Assembly (NCBI RefSeq): GCF_030064165.1
Contig: NZ_CP125947.1
Location: 3,720,001 to 3,784,000 of the forward strand
Source of the DNA: Comamonas resistens
GTDB lineage: Bacteria; Pseudomonadota; Gammaproteobacteria; Burkholderiales; Burkholderiaceae_C
Reading direction: 5' to 3'
DNA: 64,000 nucleotides
The notes under the pieces were generated by a model. It was not told the DNA's origin, made no database searches, and saw only the letters and a program-made list of their open reading frames with translations. The first letter of the stretch is position 1, and each line of letters begins with the position of its first letter. Below, in pieces: positions 10,486 to 62,023 of this stretch. Position numbers and translations under genes: made by a program.

Positions 10486-10628
10486 ATTGCCGCCGGGCCG
10501 CCCCAAGGCAATAAACCCCCTTGGGGGGCAGCGGCCACACGTCAGTGGGCAAGTGTGGGGGGCTGTTTTATTGCCGCCGAGCCCAGCCTCTTGGGAGCAA
10601 CGGCTACAACCCAGTGGGCAGGCATGGG
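10486..10628. repeat. Two tandem degenerate copies of a GC-rich dispersed repeat
   Basis: ATTGCCGCCGGGCC opens the first copy, which contains CCCCCTTGGGGGGCAGCGG and CAGTGGGCAAGTGTGGGG. After about 84 bases ATTGCCGCCGAGCCC opens a second, more diverged copy ending CCAGTGGGCAGG. Related copies are at 44934-45032 and 61841-61925. No gene is visible here. Confidence 0.65.
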
Positions 10629-10700
10629 ACTTTCTCTTCTCCACAAAATCCACAAACTCCTTATCCAGAATCTGCCCCCAACGACAATCGGGCTGAAACT

Positions 10701-43102: not shown

Positions 43103-44331
43103 TATCCATGACTGGCCGCCGGTGTCTGCAGCAGCCGCGCCAGATGAATCGCCAGCTGCTGCAGCGACTCCAGGTTGTGCACGGCCAGCATGGCATCGCT
43201 GTGACGATGCAACACACCAGCCCCTTGGGCCAAGGGGGCATACCCCTCAAAGCGCAACAAGGGGTTGAGCCAGACAAGGCGGGCGCTGTGGCGCCTGATC
43301 CATTGCAGCTCCCGCTCCAGCTGCTGCGGCTCCCCCGTGTCCAGCCCGTCGCTGATGAGCAGCACCAGCGTGCGCCGCCCCACGAGGTGGCGCCCCGCTT
43401 GCCGCCGCAGCTGAGCCAGACATTCCCCCAGACGCGTGCCACCGCCAAAATCGTCGATATCGCTGCTGGCACGCAGCAGCATGGCATCGGGGTCGCTGAG
43501 CGCAAAAGCACTGTTCAGATCACGCAAGCTGCTGCCCACGCTATAGACATGGCGGCGCAGTTGTGGATAGCGCTGCGGGCTGCTGGCCTGGTGCAGAAAA
43601 GCCAGCAGCAGGCGCGCATAGCGCTCCATCGAGCCCGAGACATCGACCAGCGCCAGCCAGGGCATGGGCAGCTTGCGGCGCCTGCGCCACCGCAGACTGG
43701 CCAGCTCGCCACCGGTACGGGCGGCAGCCTTGAGGCTAGCGGGCCAGTGCACGCTGGCCCCCGAAGGCCTCAGCTGCGTTCTGCGGCTGCGGTAGCTGGG
43801 CAGCGGCAGGCGTATGTCGCGCACCAGCTGCTGCACCAGCCGGTACTCGCTGGCGCTGAGCTGATTGAAGTCCGCATGCTGCAGTCTTTGCCGGTCGCTG
43901 GCCGACATGGCGGCATCCAGCTGCAGATCTTCCTTGGCTGGTCTCTGCTTCTGCGCGCAGCGAATGGCAGACAAGGCTTCCTGCACGCGCGGCCTATGAC
44001 GCTGCTGAGCTGCTTCGGGCGAGCGCGGCAGCAACTGGCTCAGCAGTTGCTGGGCCACCTCGGGGTTGCGAAAGTAGGCTTCAAACAACTCCCGAAAAAT
44101 CGCCAGATCCTGCTGGCGCGAGACCAGCACGGACTCCAGCGCGGCGGCCACATCGGCCTTGTCCAGGCCCACCAGCATCAGGCCTTTCTGGGCCAGCACC
44201 ATGCGCTCGGCATCCACAGCCACGCCGGCACGGCGCAGCGCACGGCCAAAGCCCAGCAGATTGAGCGGCAGCTTGCCGCTGCGCGCATCGCCCCACCAGC
44301 TGACGGTGGCAGCAGCGTCAGCCGCCTTCAT
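43102..44331 (-). CDS. CoxE-like von Willebrand factor A domain protein
   Basis: 409 residues. C-terminal VWA domain with a metal-ion-dependent adhesion site DVSGS, then DDFGGGTRL and LISDGLDTG for the remaining metal ligands. The N-terminal half is helical, as in CoxE. It works with the MoxR-type ATPase CoxD in maturing the molybdenum hydroxylase. The start overlaps the CoxD end by 14 bases, implying translational coupling. Arg-rich patches (RWRRRRKLP) are conserved in the family. Confidence 0.9.
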   Translation of the reverse strand: MKAADAAATVSWWGDARSGKLPLNLLGFGRALRRAGVAVDAERMVLAQKGLMLVGLDKADVAAALESVLVSRQQDLAIFRELFEAYFRNPEVAQQLLSQLLPRSPEAAQQRHRPRVQEALSAIRCAQKQRPAKEDLQLDAAMSASDRQRLQHADFNQLSASEYRLVQQLVRDIRLPLPSYRSRRTQLRPSGASVHWPASLKAAARTGGELASLRWRRRRKLPMPWLALVDVSGSMERYARLLLAFLHQASSPQRYPQLRRHVYSVGSSLRDLNSAFALSDPDAMLLRASSDIDDFGGGTRLGECLAQLRRQAGRHLVGRRTLVLLISDGLDTGEPQQLERELQWIRRHSARLVWLNPLLRFEGYAPLAQGAGVLHRHSDAMLAVHNLESLQQLAIHLARLLQTPAASHG

Positions 44332-45331
44332 GGGCTTCGGGCTGGAGCAGTTGCTCCAGCCTCTCGGGTGTCAGCGCGGCCACGTCTTCGCGCTGCTTGA
44401 ACAAAATGCCTGCGGTCTCGTGTACCAGTTCAGGGTCTATGACCAGGGTGTCGAGCGCCACCAGGGCTTTGGCCCATTCCACGCTCTCGGCAATGCCCGG
44501 AGCACGCGAGAAGGCATCGGCAAACGGGCGGCTGCGCAACCGGCCCACGAAATCGGCAATCTGCGCGGTCAGCGCCTGGCCGGCCTCTGGCACGCGGGCC
44601 TGGACTATGGCCAGCTCGCGTTCGCGCTCCGGGTAGTCCAGCCAGTGGTAGAGGCAGCGGCGCTTGACGGCATCATGCAGGTCGCGCGTGCGGTTGCTGG
44701 TCAGAATGGTGACCGGCGGCACCTGGGCGCGGATCACGCCCAGCTCGGGAATGCTGACCTGGTACTCGCCCAGGTATTCGAGCAAAAAGGCCTCGAAGGG
44801 CTCGTCGGCGCGGTCCACCTCGTCCATCAACAGCAGCGCACCGGGCTCCGGCGCCTGCAAGGCCTGCAGCAGTGGCCGGCGCACCAGATAGCGGCTTTGA
44901 TAAAGCTCCTGCTCGATGCTGTCGATATCATTGCGGCTGCGCGTCGAGCTGCCGCCGGGCCGCCCCAAGGCTGCGAGCGCCCCCTCGGGGGGCAGCGAGG
45001 ACACATCAGTGCCGAGCGTGGGGGCCCTCATTTCTGCGGCACGCAAATGCAGCAACTGCGCCGCGTAGTTCCATTCGTAGAGCGCCTCGCGCTGCTCCAT
45101 GCCGTCATAGCACTGCAGGCGAATCATCTGGCGTGACAGCACCTGGGCCAGTGCCTGCGCCAGAGCGGTCTTGCCCACGCCAGGCTCGCCCTCCAGCAGC
45201 AGCGGGCGCTGGAGCTTGAGCGCCAGAAACACGGCCGTGGCCAGCCTGCGATCGGCAAAATAGCCCACGCTCTGCAGGTTCTGCAGCAGAGCATCGACCG
45301 ATTGGCAGGCCACATTCACTTCACTATTCAT
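44318..45331 (-). CDS. CoxD-like MoxR-family AAA ATPase
   Basis: 337 residues. Walker A GEPGVGKT (48-55), Walker B LLLMDEVDR (166-174), sensor 1 ILTSNRTRD, and the YDGMEQREALYEWNYAAQLL block typical of CoxD/MoxR. It acts as a maturation ATPase with CoxE; in CO dehydrogenase CoxD helps build the Cu/Mo active site. Residues about 104-134 are extra compared with what I expect for the family. They are encoded by a copy of the GC-rich dispersed repeat (44934-45032) inserted in frame. The start codon overlaps an AGCTATT repeat arm. Confidence 0.9.
   Translation of the reverse strand: MNSEVNVACQSVDALLQNLQSVGYFADRRLATAVFLALKLQRPLLLEGEPGVGKTALAQALAQVLSRQMIRLQCYDGMEQREALYEWNYAAQLLHLRAAEMRAPTLGTDVSSLPPEGALAALGRPGGSSTRSRNDIDSIEQELYQSRYLVRRPLLQALQAPEPGALLLMDEVDRADEPFEAFLLEYLGEYQVSIPELGVIRAQVPPVTILTSNRTRDLHDAVKRRCLYHWLDYPERERELAIVQARVPEAGQALTAQIADFVGRLRSRPFADAFSRAPGIAESVEWAKALVALDTLVIDPELVHETAGILFKQREDVAALTPERLEQLLQPEAHEGG
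44934..45032 (-). repeat. GC-rich dispersed repeat inside the coxD-like gene
   Basis: GCCGGGCCGCCCCAAGGCTG, then GCCCCCTCGGGGGGCAGCGA, then CAGTGCCGAGCGTGGGGGCC. It matches the repeat at 10486-10562 and, reversed, 61841-61925, but sits within an open reading frame. Confidence 0.75.
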
Positions 45332-60925: not shown

Positions 60926-61840
60926 ATGAGAGCCCTGTGGATGGTGCTGGCCGCGCTGATTTTTGCGGTCATGAGTGTGTGTGTGAAGTTTGCATCCAGG
61001 GACTTCAATGCAGCAGAGATCATTTTCTATCGCGGCCTGGTCAGTATGGCCCTGCTGGCCCTGTTGGCGCGCCACAGCGGCGTGACGCTGGCCACCCGGT
61101 ACCCGCGTGAACATGCCTGGCGCAGCCTTGTGGGCGTGATCTCCATGGGTGCCTGGTTCTATGCCATCGGCCATCTGCCGCTGGCCACGGCCACCACGCT
61201 CAACTCCATGAGCAGCATCTGGATGGCCGTCCTTCTGATTGCCCAGGGCCTGTGGATGCGCCATACCTTGCGCAAATCCTACGCCGCCCAGCCCGAGACG
61301 CGCCGCGCCATCCCGCCCTTTCCCTGGGCACTGGTCAGCACGGTCTTCCTGGGTTTTGTCGGCGTGCTGCTGGTGCTGCGCCCCACCAGTGCACCGACCA
61401 GCGAGTGGATTGCCGCCACGGGCGGCCTGTTTGGCGGCATGTTCGCAGCCATGGCCTATATGCAGGTGAGCACGCTGTCGCGCCTGGGCGAGCCCGAAAC
61501 CCGTGTGGTCTTCTATTTCTCCATGGGCTCGGCCATTGCCGGCGGCATCACCATGCTGTTCACCGGCGTCTCACCCTTCCCCGGCTGGAGCGCGCTGTGG
61601 CTGCTGCCCGTGGGCGTGCTGGCCGCCGTGGCCCAGGTCTGCATGACCAAGGCCTATGCCTCCGCAGAGACCAAGCGCAACACCCTCGTCGTCGCCAATC
61701 TGCAGTATTCGGGCATCGTGTTCGCCGCCCTGCTGAGCCTGATGCTGTTTGGCGAGAGCATTCCCCTGATCGGCTGGGCCGGCATTGCGCTGATCGTCAT
61801 CAGTGGCGCTGCGGCAACTGCGCTGCGGTCTAGAAGTTGA
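60926..61840 (+). CDS. EamA/DMT-family membrane transporter
   Basis: 304 residues with ten hydrophobic segments in two EamA halves (the first from residue 1, RALWMVLAALIFAVMSVCVK; the second from about 155). Drug/metabolite transporters export metabolites or amino acids; cargo is unreadable. TTLNSMSSIWMAVLL is a typical TM4 region. The ribosome site is weak (GAGTGAG). Its stop merges with a GC-rich dispersed repeat. Confidence 0.9.
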   Translation: MRALWMVLAALIFAVMSVCVKFASRDFNAAEIIFYRGLVSMALLALLARHSGVTLATRYPREHAWRSLVGVISMGAWFYAIGHLPLATATTLNSMSSIWMAVLLIAQGLWMRHTLRKSYAAQPETRRAIPPFPWALVSTVFLGFVGVLLVLRPTSAPTSEWIAATGGLFGGMFAAMAYMQVSTLSRLGEPETRVVFYFSMGSAIAGGITMLFTGVSPFPGWSALWLLPVGVLAAVAQVCMTKAYASAETKRNTLVVANLQYSGIVFAALLSLMLFGESIPLIGWAGIALIVISGAAATALRSRS

Positions 61841-61925
61841 CCCCCTGAGCGGCTGCGCCGCTTCCCCCTTGAAGGGGGACGACACCTTCGGTGCGGGGCG
61901 GCCCTTGCTCGGTGTCCCTGACGAA
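61841..61925 (-). repeat. GC-rich dispersed repeat after the DMT gene
   Basis: CCCCCTGAGCGGCTGCGCCG, then CCCCCTTGAAGGGGG, then GGTGCGGGGCGGCCC. Reverse orientation relative to the copies at 10486 and 44934. The CCCCCTTGAAGGGGG hairpin has no T tract. Confidence 0.7.
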
Positions 61926-62023
61926 AGAGACGATGCTTGCAATGCCGGAAGGTTCAGGCAGGCGCCCACTAGCCCATGGCTTGGCGCCCGCATAATGAAC
62001 CGTAATTTCCGGAGCGCTCATCC

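Follow-up and report, generated by a model that had tools for sequence, protein, structure and literature searches.

The DNA analysed here (the window, 64,000 nt in length) comes from the 5.3-Mb genome of Comamonas resistens and carries a gene for a MoxR-type AAA+ ATPase (Table 1), which we take to be CoxD, a name given in an earlier, sequence-only reading. The gene adjoins a VWA_CoxE gene, and its neighbours also contain FAD_binding_5 and MoCoBD, which are molybdenum hydroxylase domains (Pfam). The CoxD frame is uninterrupted across its 337 aa.

Table 1. Features of the window, with the evidence on which each assignment rests.
Feature	Position	Strand	Basis
CoxD-like MoxR-type AAA+ ATPase gene, insert-bearing	44318..45331	-	ORF of 337 aa; Pfam AAA_5 and other AAA models
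BRE-like palindromic repeat, in frame (84 nt; residues 103-130), APTLGTDVSSLPPEGALAALGRPGGSST	44942..45025	-	repeat alignment; insert-free homologues
Core A, including the C-run/G-run hairpin; codes for APTLGTDVSSLPPEG and for the start of the codon that follows	44979..45025	-	alignment A4, helix 1
Stem arm X', copy-specific	44969..44978	-	stem-pairing analysis, alignment A4
Core B, constant loop region TTGGGGCGGCCCGGC, 15 nt	44954..44968	-	stem-pairing analysis, alignment A4
Stem arm X, partner of X'	44942..44953	-	pairing poor in the CoxD copy (3.5 vs mean 6.4)
Intergenic CoxD-type repeat lying behind a T run	10486..10563	-	genome repeat matches, local alignment

The sequence-only reading proposed that a dispersed repeat had enlarged this conserved AAA+ protein while keeping its frame. 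That much holds: approximately 28 residues have been added, and the frame remains open. The boundaries required correction, from residues 104-134 (44930..45022) to those in Table 1. At the insert site, insert-free homologues have 21-33 residues, versus 49-105 in carriers.

A search of the source genome scored 40 of 91 candidates and gave 34 matches at E<=0.001, the CoxD copy itself among them, so that the CoxD insert is, as had been suspected, one member of a dispersed family. The best other genomic match lies inside SsuD and is 88% identical. Within the window, the set includes only the CoxD copy and the intergenic copy at 10486-10563; the latter, already picked out by the sequence-only reading, aligns over its full length with a local score of 69 (among 400 random 95-mers from the window, 95% score <=22 and the maximum is 72). 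A third proposed copy, at 61841-61925, does not belong here: only 10 bp are common, and the score of 20 is within the random background. This site was rejected as a CoxD-type repeat and assigned to a different family, which has at least 40 matches in the genome (40 of 147 candidates scored). That second dispersed family occupies window positions 61836-61930 (CTGAGCGGCTGCGCCGCTTCCCCC...GGGGCGGCCC), and its matches are 74-100% identical. By eye, a decayed tandem CoxD-type repeat lies at 10563-10640, directly beside the intact copy. T runs precede many copies in the source genome, and tandem units are seen at L008/L012 and at L014/L024, the latter pair being one array. No Rfam match was obtained for window positions 44700-45200 up to E=1, and no match to the repeat was found in the phages searched. 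Among plasmids, the CoxD insert as query gave seven records, with one partial match under a Fic-family gene (NZ_CP019241.1, 24218-24264, from Rhodoferax antarcticus); the intergenic copy as query gave none.

In coding sense, the element consists of (i) core A, with its C-run/G-run hairpin, (ii) arm X', (iii) the 15-nt core B, and (iv) the partner arm X. The loop is constant among copies, whereas the stem differs from copy to copy, its arms compensating each other's changes. The X'-X pairing score averaged 6.41 across 85 copies, versus 2.57 with partners exchanged (500 shuffles, maximum 3.05); the 138 copies classified below gave 5.59 versus 2.43 (shuffle maximum 2.71), and in-gene copies retain the pairing (5.43 versus 2.62, shuffle maximum 3.19). 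Several copies do not show it (scores of 0-2). In alignment A4, which comprises 30 copies chosen by hand, seven stem pairs vary on both sides, with 93 compensated cells versus 26.5 in shuffles and a covariation of 0.399 versus 0.087; the pairs with a double change and the number of pair types were not above shuffles. As RNA, the CoxD copy is predicted to fold no better than its shuffles (z 0.55), while three other copies fold only weakly better (z -1.1 to -1.5). A direct repeat between the 5' flank and X is clear in 20 Comamonas copies (6.92 versus 5.55; 0 of 300 shuffles as high) and borderline in 47 others (4.47 versus 4.14; 2 of 300 shuffles). The stem is perhaps kept paired by template-switch correction of the quasi-palindrome, a process described for imperfect palindromes (PMC7202029, PMC8604942); alternatively, X' may have a role in target choice.

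The sequence-only reading suggested modelling the insert as a surface loop. In the AlphaFold model of CoxD, the insert is placed between helices at residues 80-100 and 133-143, with a pLDDT of approximately 30 and no secondary structure. A disordered loop would agree with this, but confidence in the model is too low for the loop to be positioned precisely: mean pLDDT is 64.9, and Foldseek returned poor matches (TM 0.29 to AfCbbQ2; PDB matches are CbbQ, NorQ and Lon). In the reading that we favour, the insert lies within a linker of variable length that joins two helices of the AAA+ fold. We infer that it is probably disordered there, and probably a neutral surface loop.

Alignment of CoxD homologues revealed that 91 of 98 loci are without the insert; the insert is not, however, private to the source genome. 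The remaining seven loci (L031, L032, L122, L123, L124, L126 and L129) carry it or a degraded version. The 98 loci combine 18 from a genus search with 80 named ones (the best 80 of 505), and a species may occur in both collections. A further carrier from another genus, L321, was found later. Among protein matches, 114 of the 120 listed have the insert (the best 120 of 8000, a list that leans to carriers); the named carriers among the matches listed are mostly Acidovorax, with one Comamonas guangdongensis (P0005). One protein, P0114, has three tandem units inside CoxD. Insert site and frame are identical in CoxD of Comamonas, Acidovorax, P0114, L126 and L321, and in insert-free CoxD the site is a linker of variable length.

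On a CoxD tree of 104 rows, 15 of them carriers, built with the insert columns removed (and leaving out L048, L049, L151, L189, L193 and P0001), the insert trait requires eight changes, at least six of which are forced by supported branches. The source genome falls in or next to Comamonas on this tree. Third codon positions tell of the insert's age. In five comparisons between genera or MAGs (L031, L122, L123, L126), third-position identity is 0.87-0.96 in the insert versus 0.64-0.70 in the flanks; within Acidovorax (L122-L123) the values are 0.955 and 0.802, and between the window and the sister genome G033 they are 1.0 and 0.81. Since its third positions are far less diverged than those of the flanks, the insert is younger than the gene. 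The same residues do recur in CoxD of other genera (Acidovorax, P0114 and the MAG L126), a finding that the sequence-only reading would have counted against an insertion. It does not overturn the insertion reading, because the trait requires eight changes on the tree and the insert is less diverged than its flanks; together these indicate that CoxD received the repeat on several occasions, or that alleles handed it on among themselves, and that it is not an ancestral part of the family. Two nearly identical genes, L126 with the insert and L152 without it, differ in the whole linker and do not display a clean insertion, suggesting that linker replacement may outweigh fresh insertion at CoxD.

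CoxD is one host among many, a point that the sequence-only reading missed. In SsuD of the source genome, the element also lies in frame; the stretch 420-450 stands opposite no residue in PDB 7jv3, and a relative's SsuD gene is 84 nt shorter at the insert site. Net in-gene insert lengths against relatives are 84 nt in SsuD, 81 in a gene that we take to be MaoC-like, 81 in MoaE and 87 in GlpK, although these gene-level empty sites align with scattered gaps rather than single clean ones. Hosts in the genus are LigA, MetG, MoaE, GlpK, the MaoC-like gene, and a gene resembling FemAB_like (by its likeness to L340) that has at least four tandem units in L090. In the latter gene, L090 (G035) and L066 (G042) have tandem units with periods of 81 and 87 nt, and hence constitute a coding VNTR. 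Curated models name the following hosts: AmgK, RibF, AccC-like, ThrC, CobQ, RecQ, SsuD, RecJ, AroA-Cmk, HutF, GlnD, Mpl, PEP carboxylase, IcmF, FdhD, RecG, ValS and a heme-type ABC ATPase; others were identified via Pfam, fragments and insert-bearing proteins often being below curated model cut-offs. Between the stretches that flank the insert, known structures have 0 residues in ValS (1gax), 5 in RecG (9wm0) and 10 in LigA (2owo). Two hosts illustrate the history of such copies. In GlpK of G031 (L292), a remnant of the element persists after a 54-nt in-frame deletion that removed the hairpins, and represents a decay intermediate. In RecQ, copies at apparently one site are read in two phases (L332 in phase 2, L392 in phase 1), which indicates independent insertions into a tolerant place. 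At L103/L108 (G072, G200), the repeat lies at the start of a presumably murG-like gene; arm X contains the start codon, and a second, similar start lies in the upstream flank.

Copies found in relatives by DNA similarity, with the CoxD insert and the non-coding copy L306 as queries, were classified by the codon usage of their flanks (coding threshold of 0.2, set by us). Of 152 loci entered, 138 passed; the rest failed to match the pattern, had too short a flank or were duplicates, and L097, in frame in an earlier analysis, was not passed as such. Forty-four copies, including the window's CoxD copy, are in frame inside genes, 27 lie at same-strand gene junctions, 2 between opposite strands, and 65 are intergenic or undecided. 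Each of the 27 junction copies contains a stop and a start codon, and several could extend the N-terminus of the next gene or the C-terminus of the previous one. Not one of the 73 copies with two coding-like flanks breaks the frame, although the 65 undecided copies could hide some that do.

In-gene copies are read in few phases. All 19 sense copies, one of which is the window's own, use the phase that reads APTLGT..SSLPPEGA..LGRPGG; seven of 12 earlier sense examples came from a protein search in the same phase and are excluded from this count. The antisense copies include 17 in the PSGGSE phase, 8 in a second phase and 0 in the third. Stop codons were considered, and rejected, as the whole cause of this bias: at least two phases are open in 17 of 19 sense copies (phases 0 and 2 in 10, all three in 7, only one in 2) and in all 25 antisense copies (all three in 19, two in 6). 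If phases were drawn evenly among the open ones, the chance of 19 out of 19 would be approximately 5e-7 by our own arithmetic, the copies being not fully independent (orthologues such as L301/L302 and L359/L400 occur among them). In the CoxD copy, the unused sense phases are arginine-rich, with cysteine or a stop.

Intergenic copies have recently been mobile. When the source genome is compared with G033 (CoxD flanks 91% identical), counterparts exist for 7 of the 30 own loci, CoxD and SsuD among them; G033 is 85% complete, and 30 of its 35 repeat matches entered the comparison. At L017/L232, comparison with the empty site in G033 reveals that the element was inserted cleanly, between direct repeats of 12 bp: GGCAATAAAAAA is present once at the empty site, and on both sides of the filled site at L017. 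Against their empty sites in G033, L018 and L006 have 8 bp, including an A-run, on both sides, while at L003 six bases have been replaced and there is no direct repeat. At four sites, the X arm was present in the host before insertion fully (one), nearly (one), partly (one) or not at all (one). No transposase linked to the element was found. The only Y1_Tnp gene of the source genome lies in a 3.3-kb locus (L061) with no element copy within it. Of the genomes that gave no Y1_Tnp match, 20 were listed, with 33 more outside the list, and 19 of the 20 contain the repeat. On these grounds, mobilisation by a RAYT encoded in the same genome was rejected. One genome of the bacterial family, G364, has twenty Y1_Tnp matches, which is unusually many.

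The repeat is widespread. A DNA search detected it in at least 173 of 200 genomes and at least 127 of 141 genera of the window's bacterial family (at least 165 of 200 genomes with another copy as query), and in at least 32 of 300 genomes at the order level; 3-4 candidates were scored per genome in these searches, and the loci lean to query-like copies. These properties recall the Beta-proteobacterial repeat element (BRE) of Hot et al. (2011), a GC-rich, dispersed and tandem repeat of 75-91 bp, usually intergenic but with some copies entirely within coding sequences, reported from Bordetella, Delftia, Acidovorax, Polaromonas and others (PMC3110155). Similarly, 20 in-gene units here measure 75-91 nt (boundaries set by us), tandem periods are approximately 72-91, and the element is found in many genomes of the group, mostly intergenic and with some copies inside coding sequences. 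The element is probably BRE, an identification that rests on shared properties rather than alignment. The BRE description consulted (PMC3110155) does not give the frames in which copies are read, the anatomy of the hairpin, empty sites or a list of the proteins that act as hosts, and we found no description of systematic in-frame insertion of this element in the literature surveyed.

Three other kinds of repeat bear comparison. Rickettsia palindromic elements (RPEs) are palindromic selfish repeats that lie in frame in many unrelated protein genes (PMC10969869, PMC3733652). The element described here resembles them in that way of working; RPEs belong to the Rickettsia lineage and are approximately 150 bp rather than 84, while here both orientations occur and the choice of phase has been measured. 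GTAG/CGTC REPs are short stem-loops, mostly intergenic and sometimes inside genes (PMC3733652), and the same is true of our element. However, the tags are seen in a minority of copies (in 79 copies on either strand, GTAG in 1 at the 5' and 3 at the 3' end, CGTC in 4 and 11, respectively), and no RAYT lies beside the element or is needed in the same genome. MITEs are small, palindromic and mobile (PMC10969869); the element is small, palindromic and apparently mobile, with occasional direct repeats. Unlike MITEs, it has no terminal inverted repeats that inspection of alignment A4 could find. Where a target-site duplication would be sought, the direct repeats at its empty sites vary, from 12 bp (L017) to an 8-bp A-run (L018/L006) to none (L003).

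Several histories of the CoxD insert can be weighed against these data. It could be an old part of CoxD, vertically inherited in the Comamonadaceae and lost many times; the common site and frame in Comamonas, Acidovorax, P0114, L126 and L321 fit this history, as do the residues MR...SSTR that surround the insert in both C. guangdongensis and the window. Yet most relatives are without the insert, and its third positions have diverged much less than those of the flanks (a pattern that strong constraint on the DNA could mimic). On the eight tree changes and the third-position identity, ancient vertical inheritance was rejected, and we hold it to be very improbable. Nearly as improbable is that the insert was domesticated and functions in CoxD, for example by modulating the ring or the binding of a CoxE-type VWA protein. 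The insert is unbroken in both the window and G033, and purifying selection acts on the gene (the residue is retained at 205 of 211 aligned flank codons). Insert-free orthologues are common, however, with identities of up to 97% (P0002), the peptide is the one that the repeat generically encodes and recurs in unrelated proteins, and the insert is predicted to be disordered. There is next to no chance that faulty assembly or annotation produced the gene, or that it is a pseudogene in decay: nothing was found in support of this, the 337-aa frame is open, the same insert is present in the independent genome G033, and cluster P0001 comprises 15 member sequences on 31 contigs.

A history with a more substantial, if still lesser, claim is that, following one or a few true insertions, homologous recombination of the linker was the main route by which the insert spread among CoxD alleles. 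Besides the wholly different linkers of the nearly identical genes L126 and L152, linker windows of the source genome (G000) and G033 are 0.97-1.0 identical while the rest of the gene is 0.85-0.97, and the arm GGCRGYTCG is common to the CoxD inserts of L031, L122, L123, L126 and L129. The same arm, however, occurs outside CoxD (L069, L070, L089) and is hence no mark of CoxD; short tracts with edges at the linker would be unusual; the insert of L321 is clearly different; and the RecQ copies, in different phases at apparently one site, are a case of independent insertion in another gene.

The reading that we favour, and consider likely to be correct, is that the CoxD insert is a mobile palindromic repeat of approximately 84 bp, probably BRE, of the window's bacterial family, located in frame and probably forming a neutral loop. 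It draws on the identity of the repeat, its in-frame position, the insert-free relatives, the recurrence on the tree, the youth of the insert relative to the gene, the recent mobility of intergenic copies, the phase bias and the compensating stems; beyond the few structures compared, a loop position would be expected by extension. The element would insert at fresh sites, within genes as well as between them. Of the copies in genes, selection would keep those whose net addition in bases is divisible by three and whose reading falls in one of a few permitted phases, giving a peptide rich in proline, glycine, serine and alanine and poor in cysteine, probably in loops. CoxD would have been reached repeatedly, by fresh insertion and probably also by exchange of linkers between alleles, and in-gene copies could subsequently decay by in-frame deletion, as seen in GlpK.

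More speculatively, and in our view rather unlikely, the element may be adapted to being translated: a single sense phase and mainly one antisense phase encode inert linkers, which would place approximately one third of the sampled copies in genes. In the same proposal, X' would be the complement of the flanking target, each copy carrying or acquiring an inverted copy of its landing site; the result would be a guide hairpin, in a mobile element with no known enzyme.

A review of 2024 called it "conceivable" that in-frame palindromes shape the proteins of other prokaryotes (PMC10969869). In-frame selfish palindromes are best known from Rickettsia, and the element described here brings them, at scale, to another lineage, in hosts that span DNA repair, translation and metabolic enzymes, and with a strict, testable choice of reading phase. 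It also brings to light a repeat whose loop is constant while its stem varies freely, with compensation between the arms. For annotators, it is a caution that strain-variable stretches of host proteins can be repeat-derived. It also offers dozens of natural insertion experiments, and probably many more, on where core proteins tolerate 27-29 extra residues.
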